Source: Candidatus Rokuibacteriota bacterium
GTDB lineage: Bacteria > Methylomirabilota > Methylomirabilia > Rokubacteriales > JACPHL01
Direction of reading: 5' to 3'
Length of the DNA: 6,438 nt
NCBI GenBank assembly: GCA_016188625.1
Contig: JACPHL010000272.1
Span: 1 to 6,438 of the forward strand
Part shown: piece by piece, positions 1 through 6,438 of the stretch
How the letters are laid out: each line of letters opens with the position of its first letter
How positions within the stretch are numbered: position 1 is the first letter of the stretch
The notes under the pieces: generated by a model
The model's database searches: none
Told to the model about the DNA's origin: nothing
The model's input: only the letters and a program-made list of their open reading frames with translations
Translations under genes and position numbers: made by a program

Positions 1-204
1 GAGGCCCTCCGGATCGCGACCCAGACCGGCCACCTCCTGACTTGGTCCGAGGACCGCCGGGGCGTCCTGGCGCCCGGCTACGCCGCCGACCTGGTGGTCC
101 TGAGCGACGATCCGCTCACCTGCCCGGAGGACCGGATCAGGGAGATCGCCGTGGACCTGACCGTGGTCGGGGGCCGTGTGGTCCACGAGCGGCCCGGGCT
201 ATAA
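1..204 (+). CDS. Amidohydrolase family 3 (YtcJ-like), C-terminal end only
   Basis: The frame is open from the left edge and ends at TAA (202-204), leaving the last 67 codons of a longer gene. The visible part matches the end of metal-dependent amidohydrolases: a 'GVLAPGYAADLVVL' stretch (about residues 26-39 of the fragment), then 'SDDPL', then 'LTVVGGRVVHER' close to the end. In this family that tail is the composite beta-sandwich rebuilt after the TIM barrel; the 'DPLT..ED.I' spacing before 'VGG.VV' is most like YtcJ-type amidohydrolase family 3 proteins. The metal-binding barrel lies outside the window, so substrate and activity cannot be read. These enzymes are usually cytoplasmic hydrolases of amide or related C-N bonds. 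The family call is fairly sure and the subfamily less so. The treZ start codon lies inside this gene, 29 bases before its end. Confidence 0.8.
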   Translation, partial: EALRIATQTGHLLTWSEDRRGVLAPGYAADLVVLSDDPLTCPEDRIREIAVDLTVVGGRVVHERPGL

Positions 205-2101
205 TCGCCCTATCGGCACGTCACGAACCCTCCAGCCGTTCCAGCCCGATCGCCTCCTCGGGGCGACCTGTCTCCCCGACGGACGGGTCCGCTTCCTGGT
301 CTGGGCCCCCCGGTGCCGGAGCGTCGAGGTGGAGCTCCTCGATGCCTCGCCCCACCGGATCCCGATGGCGCGGCGTGCCGGCGGCTACCACGAGGCGGTG
401 GCGCCGGGCGGCCCGGGCCTCCGCTACTTCTACGTCCTCGACGGCGAGCGCCGCCGCCCGGATCCCGCGGCCCGCGCGCTCCCCGAGGGGGTGCACGGCC
501 CGGCCGAGGTCGTGGACCCGGCCGGCTTCCACTGGACGGACGCCGGCTGGCGCGGGCGGCCCCTCGAGGAGTGCGTGCTCTACGAGCTCCACGTCGGCAC
601 CTTCACCCCCGAGGGGACCTTCGCCGCCGTGATCCCCCGGCTCCCCCGGCTCGCGGAGCTCGGCGTCACGGCGATCGAGCTGATGCCGGTGGCGAGCTTC
701 CCCGGGGCCCGGAACTGGGGGTACGATGGGGTGGGGCTGTTCGCGCCCCAGCGGACCTACGGCGGGCCCGCCGGGCTCCAGCTCCTCGTCGATGCCGCCC
801 ACGCCCACGGCCTCGCGGTCGTCCTCGACGTGGTCTACAACCACCTGGGCCCGGAGGGGAACTACCTGGCCGAGTTCGGGCCGTACTTCACCGATTGCTA
901 CCACACCCCCTGGGGGCCGGCCGTCAACTACGACGGCGGGGAGGCCGCCGGCGCGCGGCGCTTCTTCATCGAGAACGCCGTCCGCTGGGTCGGCGAGTAC
1001 CACATCGACTCCCTCCGCCTCGACGCCATCCACGGGATCTTCGACGGGAGCCCGGTCCACATCCTCCGGGCGCTGAACACCGCGGTCCAGCGGGTCGCTC
1101 GCCGGCTCGGGCGGCGCGTCCCGGTCGTCGCCGAGAGCCCCCTGAACGACCGGCGGGTGATCGATCCCGTGCGGAAGGGGGGGTACGGGCTGGCCGGGCA
1201 GTGGAGCGACGACTTCCACCACGCCCTCCACACCCTCCTCACAGGCGAGCGCACCGGGTACTACCTCGACTACGGGCGCCTGGACCAGCTGGCCCGGGCT
1301 TACACCGACGGCTTCGTCTACCAGGGCGAGCCCTCGGCCTACCGCGGCGGCCGCCCCCACGGGACCCCGTCGCGGGAGATCCCGGGCGAGAGGTTCGTGG
1401 TCTTCGCCCAGAACCACGACCAGGTGGGGAACCGGGCGCGGGGAGAGCGGCTCGGCGCGCTCGTCCCCTTCGAGGCGCTGAAGGTGGCCGCGGCGGCGAC
1501 GCTCCTCGGGCCGACGATCCCGCTCCTGTTCATGGGGGAGGAGTACGGGGAGCCGGCGCCGTTCCTCTACTTCACCAGCCACGGGGACCCGGGCCTCGGC
1601 GAGGCGGTCCGGCGCGGGCGGCGGGAGGAGTTCGCCGCCTTCGGCTGGGCGTGGGAGATCCCGGACCCGCAGGCCCCGGCCACCTTCGAGGCCTCTCGGC
1701 TCTGCTGGGAGCTGAAGGAGGCCGAGCCCCACGCCCGGCTCCGGGCCTTCTACCGGACGCTCCTCGGCCTCCGGCGGGAGCACCCGGTGCTGGGACCGGG
1801 GGGGAAGCGGGGGGTCGCCGTGGAGCCGGCGGGGGAGCGCGCCCTCGCGGTCTTCCGGCGGAGGGGGAGCGCCCGGGCCTTCTTCCTCCTCAACCTCGGA
1901 CCGACCCCGGCGACCGTCTGCATCCGGGCGCCGGCCGGGGCCTGGACGCGACTGCTGTCGAGCCGGGAGGAGCGGTTCGGCGGGCCGGGGGTCGCGGGGC
2001 CGGAGCGGCTGGTGGCGGGCAGGGGAGGGCGGCTGGGGCTGGAACTCCCGGGGCATTGCGCGGTAGTGTATCTGCGGGAGCCCGGTTCTCCTGCGCGATG
2101 A
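176..2101 (+). CDS. treZ: Malto-oligosyltrehalose trehalohydrolase (GH13)
   Basis: TreZ hydrolyses the alpha-1,4 bond next to the terminal trehalose unit of maltooligosyl-trehalose, releasing free trehalose in the cytoplasm; it is the second step of the TreY-TreZ route. The 641-residue protein has an N-terminal beta-sandwich of the isoamylase-N/CBM48 type (about 30-115, 'LPDGRVRFLVWAP'). A GH13 barrel begins near Y136 ('YELHVGTFTPEG'), and a small beta domain follows from about 540. The GH13 regions are intact: 'DVVYNH' 218-223, 'LRLDAIHG' with nucleophile D283, 'VVAES' with acid/base E320, and 'QNHDQVGNR' with D415. The TreZ signature 'MGEEYGE' starts at 453, followed by 'PFLYFTSH'. Length is slightly above the usual 560-620. 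GTG 176 is the only ATG/GTG/TTG in frame between the stop at 158-160 and the N-domain, so it is chosen by exclusion. Its Shine-Dalgarno is poor (a G run at 169-173, only 2 bases away), and about 25 extra residues precede the conserved part. The stop TGA overlaps the next ATG. Confidence 0.95.
   Translation: MWSTSGPGYNRPIGTSRTLQPFQPDRLLGATCLPDGRVRFLVWAPRCRSVEVELLDASPHRIPMARRAGGYHEAVAPGGPGLRYFYVLDGERRRPDPAARALPEGVHGPAEVVDPAGFHWTDAGWRGRPLEECVLYELHVGTFTPEGTFAAVIPRLPRLAELGVTAIELMPVASFPGARNWGYDGVGLFAPQRTYGGPAGLQLLVDAAHAHGLAVVLDVVYNHLGPEGNYLAEFGPYFTDCYHTPWGPAVNYDGGEAAGARRFFIENAVRWVGEYHIDSLRLDAIHGIFDGSPVHILRALNTAVQRVARRLGRRVPVVAESPLNDRRVIDPVRKGGYGLAGQWSDDFHHALHTLLTGERTGYYLDYGRLDQLARAYTDGFVYQGEPSAYRGGRPHGTPSREIPGERFVVFAQNHDQVGNRARGERLGALVPFEALKVAAAATLLGPTIPLLFMGEEYGEPAPFLYFTSHGDPGLGEAVRRGRREEFAAFGWAWEIPDPQAPATFEASRLCWELKEAEPHARLRAFYRTLLGLRREHPVLGPGGKRGVAVEPAGERALAVFRRRGSARAFFLLNLGPTPATVCIRAPAGAWTRLLSSREERFGGPGVAGPERLVAGRGGRLGLELPGHCAVVYLREPGSPAR
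200..205 (+). promoter_or_regulatory. Perfect TATAAT hexamer, possible -10 element
   Basis: TATAAT sits over the amidohydrolase stop codon (TAA 202-204), flanked by short GGGC (196-199) and GCCC (207-210) arms. A consensus -10 box is striking in such GC-rich DNA. Against it: no recognisable -35 hexamer lies 15-19 bases upstream and there is no TGn extension. Transcription would also begin near 212, after the only usable treZ start codon at 176. It could be a weak real promoter serving a shorter treZ or the downstream genes, or simply the Tyr-Asn codons of treZ. I consider the latter at least as likely. Confidence 0.22.
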
Positions 2102-3393
2102 TGACCCCGCCGATCATCTACAACCTGTTCCCGACGCTGGTCGGCCCGCCGGAGCGCTGGGTTCCGCACGCCGAGCGCGCCCGGGCCATGGGGTTCACCT
2201 GGATCTACGTCAACCCCTGGCACTACCCCGGCTTCTCGGGGAGCCTCTACGCGGTGAAGGAGCCCTGGCGCCTCCACCCGACCCTGGTGGCCCCCGGTCA
2301 GGCCGAGGACGACCTCGGCGAGCTCGCGCGGGTGGTGCGTCACCTGCGGGGGATGGGGCTCGGCGCGATGATGGACCTGGTCCTTAACCACGTGGCCAAG
2401 GACAGCCCGTTGGTCGAACGGCACCCCGGCTGGTTCCGCCGCCACCCCGACGGCACGCCTGTGAGCCCCTCGGTCGTCGATCCGGACGACCCGCGGAAGG
2501 TGACGGTGTGGGGGGACCTGGCCGAGGTGGACAACGCCGGGGCCGAGGACCGGGAACGGCTCTGGCGCTACTGGGAGGACCTCGTCCGCGGGGCGCTCGC
2601 GCTGGGGTTCAACGGCTTCCGCTGCGACGCCGCCTACAAGGTCCCGGCCGCGCTCTGGGGCCGGCTCGTCGCGGCGGCGCGCGCGGTCGAGCCCGGGGTC
2701 GTCTTCGCGGCGGAGACCCTCGGCTGCGCGGTCCCGGAGGTCAAGGCCCTCCGGGACGCCGGCTTCGACTACCTGTATAATAGCTCCAAGTGGTGGGACT
2801 TCCGCGCGCCCTGGTGTCTCCAGCAGCACGAAGAGTTCCGGGCGATCGCCCCGTCCATCGCGTTCCCCGAGTCCCACGACACCGAGCGCCTCGCCCGGGA
2901 GAGCGGCGGGAGCCAGGCGGTCCAGCGGCAGCGCTACGCCTTCGCGGCGGCCTTCTCGGCGGGCGTCCAGATCACCATCGGCTATGAGTACGGCTTCCAG
3001 CGACGCCTGGACGTGGTCAGGACCCGCCCCGCCGACTGGGAGGCCCCGCGCTTCGACCTCTCGGGGTTCCTCGCGCGGGTCAACGCCCTCAAGGCCCGAC
3101 ACCCCCTGCTGGCCGGCGAGGGGGTCCTGCGGGCGCTCCCGGACCCGGGCGAGGGCGTGGTACTCCTCGCGCGCTGGTCGGACGAGGCCGGCACGCGGCG
3201 AGGGCTCATCCTGGTGAACCCCGACCCCGCCCGCGCCCGATCCCTGAGGCTCCCGGCCGAGGCCCGAGGGCGGGGGCTCCGGCTCTATCGGGTCTGTCGG
3301 GACGAGGCGCCGGCCCCCGGCGAGGCCATCGCCGCCGGGGACCTCGACCTCGACCCCGCGGAGGTCACGCTCGTGATGGAGCCGCTGCCGTGA
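2098..3393 (+). CDS. GH13 alpha-amylase-superfamily protein, specificity unassigned
   Basis: This 431-residue protein is a minimal GH13 enzyme. It enters the barrel directly ('IYNLFPTLVGP' at the N-terminus, then 'WIYVNPWHYPGFSGSLYAV') with no N-terminal beta domain, and ends in a short beta domain from about residue 345. The catalytic regions are complete: 'DLVLNH' 93-98, region V-like 'LAEVDN' 141-146, 'GFRCDAAYK' with nucleophile D177 and R175, 'AAETLG' with acid/base E206, and 'ESHDTER' with H260 and D261. Retaining alpha-glucanase or 4-alpha-glucanotransferase chemistry is therefore expected. It lacks the TreZ and TreY signatures and the GlgE-type active-site sequences I know, and MalQ belongs to a different family (GH77). 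No signal peptide is visible, so it is probably cytoplasmic. The start is ATG 2098, overlapping the treZ stop as ATGA; a second ATG follows at 2101. The nearest purine-rich site (GGGAG 2076-2080) is 17 bases away, so translation probably depends on coupling to treZ. The stop overlaps the treY GTG. By context it acts on malto-oligosaccharides feeding trehalose synthesis. Confidence 0.9.
   Translation: MMTPPIIYNLFPTLVGPPERWVPHAERARAMGFTWIYVNPWHYPGFSGSLYAVKEPWRLHPTLVAPGQAEDDLGELARVVRHLRGMGLGAMMDLVLNHVAKDSPLVERHPGWFRRHPDGTPVSPSVVDPDDPRKVTVWGDLAEVDNAGAEDRERLWRYWEDLVRGALALGFNGFRCDAAYKVPAALWGRLVAAARAVEPGVVFAAETLGCAVPEVKALRDAGFDYLYNSSKWWDFRAPWCLQQHEEFRAIAPSIAFPESHDTERLARESGGSQAVQRQRYAFAAAFSAGVQITIGYEYGFQRRLDVVRTRPADWEAPRFDLSGFLARVNALKARHPLLAGEGVLRALPDPGEGVVLLARWSDEAGTRRGLILVNPDPARARSLRLPAEARGRGLRLYRVCRDEAPAPGEAIAAGDLDLDPAEVTLVMEPLP
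3378..3381 (+). promoter_or_regulatory. Ribosome binding site of treY
   Basis: GGAG lies 8 bases before GTG 3390, a normal Shine-Dalgarno spacing. It supports the GTG that overlaps the previous stop (GTGA) as the treY start, in agreement with the conserved 'ATYRLQL' block starting about 22 residues later. Confidence 0.55.
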
Positions 3394-6300
3394 CGGACGC
3401 CCACGCGCTCCTCGCCAGGGTCGTGCGGGCGCTGGCCCGCCCCCGCCGCGCGACCTACCGCCTCCAGCTCGGCCCCGACCTCCGCTTCGAGGAGGTCGCG
3501 GCGCTGGCGCCCTACCTGGCGGACCTGGGGGTCAGCGAGGCCTATCTCTCGCCCTGCTTCAAGTCGGGGCCGGAGAGCTCCCACGGCTACGACGTCACCG
3601 ACCACAACGCCTTCAACCCCGAGGTTGGGACGGAGGCCGCCTTCGACCGGACGGCGGCCGCGCTGGCCGAGCGGGGGCTCGGGGTGCTCCTCGACATCGT
3701 CCCCAACCACATGGGGATCGCCGGGGACTCGAACCCGTGGTGGCTCGACGTCCTGGAGAACGGCCCCAGCTCGTCCTACGCGAGCTTCTTCGACATCGAC
3801 TGGGCCCCGGTGAAGGCCGAGCTGACGGGGAAGGTCCTCCTGCCGATCCTGCCCGACCAGTACGGCCGGGTCCTCGAGGCCCAGGGGCTGCGCCTGGAGT
3901 TCGCCGAGGGGGCCTTCTTCGTGCGCTACGGGGAGGCGCGCCTCCCCATCGCCCCGAAGACCTACGCCCTCGTGCTCCGCCACGGGCTCGAGGCCCTCGG
4001 CGAGCGGCTCGGGCCCGAGGACCCCCACTTCATGGAGCTCCAGAGCATCCTGACGGCCCTGGATCACCTGCCGCCCCGGACGGAGACCGATCCGGGCCGC
4101 CGGGCCGAGCGCTTTCGGGAGAAGGAGATCGTCAAGCGCCGGCTCGCCGCCCTTGTCAAAGAGTCCGAGGAGGTCCGCGCCTTCGTCGAGGAGAACGTGC
4201 GGGCCTTCAACGGGACCCCCGGCGAGCCGCGGAGCTTCGACCGCCTCGACGGGCTCCTCTCGGCCCAGGCCTACCGCCTGGCCGACTGGCGGGTGGCCGG
4301 CGACGAGATCAACTACCGCCGGTTCTTCGACGTCAACCACCTCGCCGCCATCCGCATGGAGCTCCCCGAGGTCTTCGAGGTCACCCACCGGCTGGTGCTC
4401 CGCCTCGTCGGCGAGGGGAAGGTGACGGGCCTCAGGGTGGACCACCCCGACGGGCTCTACGCGCCCGGGGAGTACTTCCGCCGCCTCCAAGAGGGGGCGG
4501 TGCGGGAGACGGCCCGGCGCCTTCAGCCGGACCTCGACGAGGCGGGGCTCGAGGCGCTCCTGGCGCGCTACCGGGAGGCCGCGGCGGCGGACCCGGCGGC
4601 GCCCTCGGCCCGGCCGCTCTGGATCCTCGCGGAGAAGATCCTCCTCGGCGACGAGCGCCTCCCGGAGTGGTGGCCCGTGGCGGGGACGACCGGGTACGAC
4701 TTCCTGGCCTCGGCGAACGGGCTCTTCGTGGACCGTGACGCCGCCCGCCCCATGACCTCGACCTACGCCCGGTTCGTCGGGGCGCGCACGGCCATGGCCG
4801 ACCTCGTCTACGCCACCAAGCGGTTGATCATGCTGACCTCCATGGCCAGCGAGATCAACATGCTCGGCCTCGACCTGGACCGGATCTCGGAGACGAACCG
4901 GCTCTCCCGCGACTTCACCCTGAGCAGCCTGGTGCGGGTCCTCCGCGAGGTGATCGCCTGCTTCCCCGTCTACCGGACCTACGTGGGGGACGAACGGCTC
5001 GAGGTGAGCCCGCGCGACCGCGCCTACATCGAGATGGCCGTGGCCGAGGCCCGCCGACGCATCCCCACCGTGAACGTCTCCATCTTCGACTTCGTCCGCG
5101 ACACCCTGCTGCTCCGGCATCTGCCCGAGCTGGGAGCGGAGGAGGGGGGCGCGCGCCGGCACTTCGTGATGCGCTTCCAGCAGACCACCGGCCCGGTCAC
5201 CGCCAAGGGGGTGGAGGACACCGCCCTCTACCGCTACAACCGCCTGGTCTCCCTGAACGAGGTCGGCGGCGACCCGGCGCGCTTCGGCGAGCCGGTCTCT
5301 GCGTTCCACGAGCGGAGCGCCGAGCGCCTGGCCCGTTGGCCCGAGACCCTGCTGGCCACCTCGACCCACGACACCAAGCGGGGCGAGGACGTCCGCGCGC
5401 GGATCCACGTCCTCTCGGAGATCCCCCGCGACTGGCGGGCCCAGGTGGGGCGCTGGGGCCGGCTGAATCGGCGGAAGAAGGTCGTGGTCGGTGGCCAGCT
5501 CGCCCCGGACCGGAACGAGGAGTACCTGCTCTACCAGACCCTGGTGGGGACCTGGCCGCTCGGCTCGCCGGGCCCCGCGGAGCTGGCCGACTACCGGGCG
5601 CGGATCCGGGCCTATATGGAGAAGGCCACCAAGGAGGCCAAGGTCCACACCAGCTGGATCAACCCCAGCGAGGAGTATGACCGCGCGGTCCAGGCCTTCG
5701 TGGTGGCGGTCCTGGAGGACACCCCGGGTAACCGCTTCCTCGCCGAGCTGCGGGCCTTCCAGGCCCGGATCGTCCGCTACGGCCTCCTCTACGCCCTCGG
5801 GCAGACGGTCCTGAAGATCGCCTCGCCGGGGATCCCCGACCTCTACCAGGGGACCGAGCTCTGGGACTTCAGCCTGGTGGACCCGGACAACCGGCGGCCG
5901 GTGGACTACGCGACCCGGCGCGCCCTCCTCGAGAAGCTCAGGGAGCGGATCGCCGCCTCGGGGGGCGACCTGGTCCGGCTGGCCCGGGAGCTGGCGGAGA
6001 CGCTCGAGGACGGCCGCGTCAAGCTCTACGTGGTCCACCGCGGCCTCGCCGCGCGCCGGGAACTCCCGGGCCTCTTCGCCACCGGCGCCTACCTGCCCAT
6101 GGAGGCGCAGGGGGAACGGGCGGAGCACGTGATCGCCTTCGCCCGGCAGGCGGGGGACCGGGTGGCCGTCGCGGTGGTGCCGCGCCTGGCGACCCGGCTG
6201 GGCAAGGGGCCGGAGGCCCTGCCGCTCGGGGAGGAGGCCTGGGGGGAGAGCTGGCTCCCGCTCCCGACCGGGATCACCGCCCGGCGGTTCGACCACTGCT

Positions 6301-6438
6301 TCACCGGCGAGCGGCTCGAGCCCCTCGAGCGGGAGGGGCGACCCGTCCTCGGCGGTGAGCTTGACGAGGGAGTAGAACTCTTCGAGCGGGATCTGCCCCG
6401 TCTCGTCGAAGCGGCGACCGAGGATCGCCTCGGCCGGC
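3390..6438 (+). CDS. treY: Malto-oligosyltrehalose synthase (GH13), 3' end not closed in window
   Basis: TreY is an intramolecular transglucosidase. It turns the reducing-end alpha-1,4 linkage of a malto-oligosaccharide into an alpha,alpha-1,1 linkage, making the substrate of TreZ. The frame starts at GTG 3390 and has no stop before the right edge (1016 codons; the family is usually about 700-950). Hallmarks in order: 'ATYRLQL' near 23, 'SSHGYDVTDHNAFNPE' near 65-80, 'DIVPNH' 102-107, 'RVDHPDGL' with nucleophile D351, 'ILAEKIL' with acid/base E415, 'GTTGYDFL' shortly after, 'KRLIMLTSMASEIN', 'RFQQTTGPVTAKGVEDTA', 'STHDTKRGED' with D661, 'HTSWINPSEEYD' and 'PGIPDLYQGTELWDF'. The C-terminal beta domain is recognisable to 'FTGERLEPL' (about 6300-6317), where family members have some 15-30 residues left. 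After that the frame stays open but codon third positions lose their G/C bias (7 of the 13 codons from gag 6357 to 6395). The true end is therefore uncertain: a frameshift near 6304-6353 or overlap with a convergent gene is possible. Confidence 0.95.
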   Translation, partial: MTDAHALLARVVRALARPRRATYRLQLGPDLRFEEVAALAPYLADLGVSEAYLSPCFKSGPESSHGYDVTDHNAFNPEVGTEAAFDRTAAALAERGLGVLLDIVPNHMGIAGDSNPWWLDVLENGPSSSYASFFDIDWAPVKAELTGKVLLPILPDQYGRVLEAQGLRLEFAEGAFFVRYGEARLPIAPKTYALVLRHGLEALGERLGPEDPHFMELQSILTALDHLPPRTETDPGRRAERFREKEIVKRRLAALVKESEEVRAFVEENVRAFNGTPGEPRSFDRLDGLLSAQAYRLADWRVAGDEINYRRFFDVNHLAAIRMELPEVFEVTHRLVLRLVGEGKVTGLRVDHPDGLYAPGEYFRRLQEGAVRETARRLQPDLDEAGLEALLARYREAAAADPAAPSARPLWILAEKILLGDERLPEWWPVAGTTGYDFLASANGLFVDRDAARPMTSTYARFVGARTAMADLVYATKRLIMLTSMASEINMLGLDLDRISETNRLSRDFTLSSLVRVLREVIACFPVYRTYVGDERLEVSPRDRAYIEMAVAEARRRIPTVNVSIFDFVRDTLLLRHLPELGAEEGGARRHFVMRFQQTTGPVTAKGVEDTALYRYNRLVSLNEVGGDPARFGEPVSAFHERSAERLARWPETLLATSTHDTKRGEDVRARIHVLSEIPRDWRAQVGRWGRLNRRKKVVVGGQLAPDRNEEYLLYQTLVGTWPLGSPGPAELADYRARIRAYMEKATKEAKVHTSWINPSEEYDRAVQAFVVAVLEDTPGNRFLAELRAFQARIVRYGLLYALGQTVLKIASPGIPDLYQGTELWDFSLVDPDNRRPVDYATRRALLEKLRERIAASGGDLVRLARELAETLEDGRVKLYVVHRGLAARRELPGLFATGAYLPMEAQGERAEHVIAFARQAGDRVAVAVVPRLATRLGKGPEALPLGEEAWGESWLPLPTGITARRFDHCFTGERLEPLEREGRPVLGGELDEGVELFERDLPRLVEAATEDRLGR
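6309..6437 (-). CDS. Possible convergent protein-coding segment, unrecognised
   Basis: Read leftward from the right edge, the - strand frame with codon 6435-6437 first gives 43 codons of ordinary-looking protein, including 'AEAILGRRFDETGQ' and 'PLEEFYSLVKLTAEDG'. From 6354 to the edge, G+C by codon position in this frame is about 68% first, 39% second and 93% third, the usual profile of a real gene in this DNA. The treY frame over the same bases gives about 93, 39 and 68%, which is unlike the rest of treY. I do not recognise the family. The frame has no stop here and runs on as a plain antisense shadow of treY, so its true end must lie near 6301-6350 through a frameshift, or the signal is a short-sample accident. 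The start lies beyond the window. Confidence 0.35.
6314..6330. repeat. Short perfect inverted repeat near the treY end
   Basis: GCTCGAG (6314-6320), CCC (6321-6323), CTCGAGC (6324-6330) form a 7-bp stem with a 3-base loop. It lies where treY homology fades and where a convergent gene may end. No T run follows on either strand, so it is not a standard intrinsic terminator. It could be a processing or bidirectional stop structure, or simply Leu-Glu codons. Confidence 0.3.

Follow-up and report, generated by a model that had tools for sequence, protein, structure and literature searches.

A GH13 enzyme of unassigned subfamily encoded between treZ and treY in a Candidatus Rokuibacteriota bacterium

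The described enzymes closest to P1, a protein encoded between treZ and treY on a 6,438-base contig of a Candidatus Rokuibacteriota bacterium, are GlgE (GH13_3) and the maltogenic amylases of GH13_48. GlgE is a maltosyltransferase; the phosphate of maltose 1-phosphate is bound by N352, K355, Y357 and N395 (S. coelicolor numbering), and the −2 glucose by Asp359 (PMC4526890). In the GH13_48 enzyme AmyB, Asp135 is a part of the non-reducing-end site, and GQ at the end of conserved sequence region (CSR) VII is a signature of the subfamily (PMC11239784). Both MalQ and GlgX participate in the GlgA-TreY-TreZ operon that is present in Pseudomonas aeruginosa (PMC11046441).

The comparisons presented here place P1 on a subfamily-level branch of its own, beside and not within the characterised GH13 subfamilies. 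We tentatively read P1 as a retaining enzyme that acts on the ends of chains; in the likeliest case it transfers maltosyl or short glucan units and would thereby recycle malto-oligosaccharides for TreY, GlgE and MalQ.

The P1 gene, its fold and its relatives

The window, that is, the whole stretch of DNA analysed, is the entire 6,438-base contig (C89) of a 2.6-Mb genome bin that is 84% complete. P1 is described by two entries:

2098..3393, + strand: P1, 431-residue GH13 enzyme of unassigned subfamily (open reading frame; catalytic residues invariant in 60/60 relatives; AlphaFold2 model; clade support 100/99)
Catalytic residues of P1, assigned by sequence comparison: nucleophile Asp177, acid/base Glu206, transition-state stabiliser Asp261

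The reading frame starts with ATG, ends with TGA and runs through 431 codons without interruption. P1 is a real gene and not a chance open reading frame, because full-length relatives at 45–65% identity occur in many phyla and the AlphaFold2 model has a mean predicted local distance difference test score of 93.4 (predicted template modelling score 0.93). The model shows the (β/α)8 barrel, which, together with the catalytic Asp/Glu/Asp in the conserved regions, places P1 in GH13. Asp93, Asn97, His98, Arg175, Asp177, Glu206, His260 and Asp261 are invariant (60/60) in the alignment of 60 P1 sequences. The original prediction of an intact Asp177/Glu206/Asp261 triad is thus borne out, as is that of a protein lacking an N-terminal β domain, since the model opens with the first barrel strand at residues 6–10. 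Judged by the residues and the model, P1 is probably an active retaining GH13 enzyme under selection.

The scan of 84,980 species found 282 P1 relatives; the best 80 of these, spread over about 14 phyla, were retained for the survey of loci. They include a relative (L097, 8001-9395) in an archaeal bin labelled Candidatus Sigynarchaeota, for which transfer or contamination may be the explanation. Two genomes from the same order as the window organism carry P1 at 65% and 62% identity, and one from the same class at 49%. Within the host phylum, P1 was present in 4/95 genomes and TreY in 44/95. No relatives were found among the viral contigs searched.

The flanking genes are as follows:

176..2101, + strand: treZ, malto-oligosyltrehalose trehalohydrolase (TIGR02402, 718.8 bits, cut-off 539)
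3390..6438, + strand: treY, malto-oligosyltrehalose synthase (TIGR02401, 939.6 bits, cut-off 499)

Both identities are secure, as the NCBIfam models are equivalogs. The start codon of treZ is uncertain, the TIGR02402 match beginning at residue 38, and treY is open at the contig end, with 1016 codons seen and TIGR02401 matched to profile position 814 of 838. The coordinates predicted for P1 and its overlaps of 4 bases with each neighbour stood up: treZ ends at 2101 (ATGA), and treY starts with GTG at 3390 (GTGA). Since homologues start from the position of the second Met (base 2101), P1 may in reality share just 1 base with treZ. The P1 frame is also open through most of treZ (window 313-3393, 1026 codons); this long stretch is a shadow frame typical of GC-rich DNA and does not represent a treZ-P1 fusion.

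Placement within GH13 and the active site

The sole Pfam match of P1 was PF14701 (hDGE_amylase), the glucanotransferase domain of glycogen debranching enzyme, at 70.5 bits (above the cut-off), with the best stretch at profile positions 14–114 of 439, about a quarter of the model. PF14701 was also matched by 60/60 P1 relatives. The NCBIfam scan gave nothing near any cut-off. Neither TIGR02100 nor CBM48, found in the TreX/GlgX debranching enzymes, was matched in the NCBIfam and Pfam scans, and the Pfam scan did not find PF11896 (GlgE domain N/S), which in the fusion proteins described below falls in the GlgE half. The closest solved folds were 3DHU (Z 37.4), GlgE (Z 36.3) and 4GKL (Z 34.8), at 20–23% identity; 3dhu and 4gkl were also the best profile matches among solved structures. 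Outside its own clade, the P1 profile scored bacterial GH13_25-like proteins best (111–138 bits).

In the maximum-likelihood tree, a check proposed together with the original prediction, all 21 P1 sequences form one clade (support 100/99) that does not clearly belong to any characterised subfamily. This clade joins GlgE and the bacterial GH13_25-like proteins with support 100/97, the GH13_48-type proteins standing outside. The four GH13_48-type sequences were picked by their similarity to AmyB and not by CAZy assignment, and in place of eukaryotic or CAZy-assigned GH13_25 members the tree holds bacterial stand-ins picked by Pfam match and gene neighbourhood. As in GH13_48, the CSR-II nucleophile is immediately preceded by a Cys in P1 (Cys176) and in 48/60 relatives, whereas CSR-VII ends in Gly-Tyr (40/60) or Gly-Phe (20/60). 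The position in the tree, apart from the four GH13_48-type proteins, and the CSR-VII ending rule out a straight assignment to GH13_48. A straight assignment to GH13_25, in which PF14701 would extend over most of the length, is ruled out by the partial coverage, the tree and the motifs. Moreover, the 431-residue P1 has no GH133 (amylo-1,6-glucosidase) domain, and the GH133 query found none near the 80 P1 loci. The original view of P1 as an unassigned GH13 protein agrees with the Pfam and NCBIfam scans, the tree and the motif tests.

Of the GlgE residues that bind phosphate, N395 corresponds to Ala178 and Y357 to Trp138 in P1 (each 60/60), N352 is aligned with Asp128, and the K355 position is variable among the relatives. 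By this alignment the GlgE-type phosphate site is gone from P1, so that the donor should be a glucan and maltose 1-phosphate is unlikely. Asp140, invariant in 60/60, is aligned with Asp359 of GlgE and Asp135 of AmyB; its equivalent is absent from MalZ, TreC, TreS and TreZ in the alignment. Because Asp140 matches the −2 or non-reducing-end Asp of both enzymes, it suggests that P1 recognises the chain end at −2 and would hence act in an exo fashion.

Genomic partners and fusions

In Azospirillum and relatives, P1 and a complete GlgE form a single protein (1106 residues), with P1 as the N-terminal part. A separate glgE adjoins the P1 gene in Hydrogenophilus, Sulfuricella and others, and malQ lies beside it in Chloroflexi, Syntrophobacterales and others. 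Linkage to treZ or treY was seen in the window and in loci L026, L033, L062, L070, L074 and L098. When one count was made per genus or title, an alpha-glucan gene (glgE, treS-mak, malQ, glgB, glgX, treZ or treY) was fused to P1 or lay within 6.5 kb in 33/51 genus-level groups, and the link to GlgE, TreS-Mak and MalQ was as frequent as, or more frequent than, that to TreY/TreZ. The remaining copies, of which there are many, stand among unrelated genes.

GlgE was present in 27/48 P1-carrier genomes vs 1/14 control genomes, TreY in 31/48 vs 3/14, and MalQ in 44/51 vs 8/14. The original prediction envisaged a treZ-GH13-treY order recurring across genomes in which malQ is missing. Neither part generalised: among the 80 retained loci the exact order was found in the window only, with looser treZ or treY linkage in at least six other loci, and most carriers have MalQ, which also excludes P1 as a general MalQ replacement. 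A role as a strict trehalose-operon enzyme was likewise rejected, given the 17/48 carriers without TreY and the copies among unrelated genes. Because of the links to GlgE, TreS-Mak and MalQ and these TreY-less carriers, we conclude that P1 belongs to alpha-glucan and malto-oligosaccharide metabolism generally, beyond trehalose synthesis.

Several further arrangements were observed. Desulfobacca species (L037, L039) have a MalQ-P1 fusion of ~1200 residues, GH77 followed by a P1-type GH13 domain. In Thiohalocapsa (L098, 1704-7061; L074), a MalQ-TreY fusion of 1786 residues adjoins treZ, with the P1 gene ~1 kb further. In Marinamargulisbacteria (L068 and L087, 2143-9278), a gene for a GH57 protein is found upstream of the P1 gene, the two being separated by tgt and secD/secF. 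A planctomycete group (L109, L110, L111) has a free-standing GH13_25-like protein of ~550 residues, a case of a glycogen debranching enzyme in split form; its gene adjoins one for a GH133 amylo-1,6-glucosidase in L109 and one for glycogen phosphorylase in L111.

In the 84%-complete window assembly, family searches found no GH77 MalQ, phosphorylase or GH57, and no GlgE or TreS; the Pfam Alpha-amylase search of the same assembly returned treZ and treY only. Glycogen synthase GlgA is present (contig C141), which is suggestive of a short route from GlgA to TreY/TreZ with P1 in this organism, comparable to that of the P. aeruginosa operon. The self-contained three-enzyme module originally proposed is thus possible in the window genome, where MalQ was not found, and is not a rule among the carriers.

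In some of the GlgE fusions, catalytic residues are missing from the N-terminal P1 domain through loss: this is the case in Rhizobium, Caballeronia, Cupriavidus and, partly, Burkholderia multivorans, with examples such as Asp177 to Leu/Glu, Glu206 to Trp/Gly and Asp261 to Phe/Tyr. In the GlgE half, the motifs of the nucleophile and the acid/base are preserved; the rhizobial fusions gave no match to the NTPDI motif. Azospirillum, Skermanella, Dongia and others retain all catalytic residues of the fused P1 domain. The degraded fusions are:

L108, 11884-15360: degraded P1-GlgE fusion
L122, 3974-7198: degraded P1-GlgE fusion
L123, 3998-7255: degraded P1-GlgE fusion
L124, 3453-6716: degraded P1-GlgE fusion
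L125, 3525-6749: degraded P1-GlgE fusion
L126, 3477-6872: degraded P1-GlgE fusion
L127, 3468-6695: degraded P1-GlgE fusion

In some lineages the fused domain thus appears, from its residues, to have turned from an enzyme into a support domain. Databases label the whole rhizobial and Burkholderiales fusion as a maltosyltransferase. No mention of the fusion was found in the relevant passages of a 2024 Chem. Rev. article, and an earlier mention is possible.

Proposed function and comparison with known systems

The original suggestion of a glucanotransferase or a chain-trimming amylase is still the best idea. In the window operon, P1 would take up the short chains left by TreY/TreZ and rebuild them to a length usable by TreY, so that a larger share of the GlgA-made glucan could be converted to trehalose. 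Elsewhere, the same activity may supply acceptor chains to GlgE and substrates to MalQ. We infer transfer rather than hydrolysis, as well as the unit size, the chain-end action and the physiological role. Transfer is favoured because the neighbouring clades are transferases, which we take the GH13_25 and GH13_25-like proteins to be, and because the partners GlgE, MalQ and TreY need a certain chain length. Several observations weigh against recycling by transfer. The GlgE/GH13_25-like join in the tree is weak (80/62) and was flagged as long-branch, and the GH13_48 maltogenic amylases are nearly equal to these proteins in sequence score to P1 and equal in fold. As MalQ is itself a transferase and is present in most carriers, the need for another is not evident. 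The GlgE −2 residues K264, N268 and K534/Y535 are not conserved in P1, which makes a strict maltosyl unit uncertain. Finally, we found no assayed or solved member of the P1 clade.

The main rival is an exo-acting maltogenic amylase similar to AmyB, which would trim maltodextrins and clear odd or short ends useless to TreY, the maltose feeding TreS/Mak where present. The nearest single solved folds and the top profile matches include 3dhu and 4gkl, the counterpart of AmyB Asp135 is invariant (PMC11239784), and maltose is the precursor for the treS-mak and glgE neighbours. Nevertheless, P1 falls outside the GH13_48 clade (100/97) and has GY/GF in place of GQ, the window assembly has no TreS to use the maltose, and it would be wasteful to fuse a hydrolase with GlgE, which polymerises; we regard this amylase as possible but doubtful. 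A glucanotransferase of broader donor size, e.g. a GH13_25-like transferase that forms one half of a debranching system and prepares branched glucan for TreY, would explain the sole Pfam match, common to all 60 relatives, and the highest scores outside the clade. It is improbable, as the best PF14701 stretch covers only ~100 of 439 positions, the 80 loci have no GH133 partner, and the nucleophile is followed by Ala and not by the Asn of GlgE and GH13_25-like proteins.

Since the residue-depleted fused domains of Rhizobium and Burkholderiales persist, a P1 domain need not be catalytic to have a role. That P1 mainly assists complexes of GlgE, MalQ or TreY/TreZ, as a partner without catalysis or by binding glucan, is nonetheless very unlikely, the invariant catalytic residues of the window protein and its 60 relatives being hard to explain without catalysis. 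Least probable of all is a GlgE variant using or releasing maltose 1-phosphate. The proximity to GlgE in fold and tree speaks for it, as does an Asp-Trp motif that both have close to where the barrel ends on its C-terminal side; we rejected it on the phosphate-site residues, as the ligands N395, N352 and Y357 are not kept (PMC4526890). Besides, most P1 loci with GlgE have a separate intact GlgE half or gene, and the window assembly has neither GlgE nor TreS.

Recycling by a chain-end transferase could be extended to a broader and more speculative proposal. P1 might found a new GH13 subfamily of glucan maltosyltransferases by which the routes of GlgE, MalQ and TreYZ are linked. It would stand alone as an enzyme in many phyla, serve as an active GlgE domain in Azospirillum and relatives and as a dead one in rhizobia and Burkholderiales, and replace both MalQ and TreX in the trehalose synthesis of the window organism. 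P1, from a widespread and uncharacterised branch, is well suited to a first assay and does not amount to a new kind of system. Assay of a single protein would define the specificity of a clade that counts at least 282 relatives in the scanned genomes. It would also account for the second GH13 domain present in many bacterial GlgE proteins, which at present is annotated only as part of a maltosyltransferase, and show whether TreYZ trehalose synthesis runs without MalQ and TreX. The catalytic loss in the rhizobial and Burkholderiales fusions is a testable case of the change from enzyme to support domain.

P1 closely resembles GlgE in the fold of the catalytic domain and of the C domain (Z about 36 at 22% identity); the two also have neighbouring clades and the −2 subsite Asp in common, and many P1 relatives are fused or adjacent to GlgE. 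Unlike GlgE, P1 lacks domains N and S and the phosphate-binding residues, and it keeps the canonical region I Asn97-His98. With the GH13_48 enzymes Thermotoga neapolitana AmyB (4GKL) and L. plantarum 3DHU, P1 shares a compact three-domain GH13 architecture (Z 35–37), the Cys before the nucleophile and the conserved non-reducing-end-site Asp. It differs in its separate clade, the end of CSR-VII, CSR-IV (E-S/T-H-D-T vs E-N-H-D) and the motifs TRPxDWE and SSKWW, which are not in the aligned GH13_48-type proteins. The PF14701 debranching transferase domain (GH13_25) and the bacterial GH13_25-like proteins resemble P1 in the N-terminal barrel half with W...SGSLY and in the presence of Asp140, whereas P1 has DAAYK instead of DN.H after the nucleophile, no GH133 domain or adjoining gene, and a match to a quarter of the model. 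MalQ (GH77) of the Pseudomonas aeruginosa type of GlgA-TreY-TreZ operon shares with P1 the proposed malto-oligosaccharide recycling role beside TreY/TreZ, but it belongs to a different family, and P1 usually accompanies MalQ instead of replacing it.

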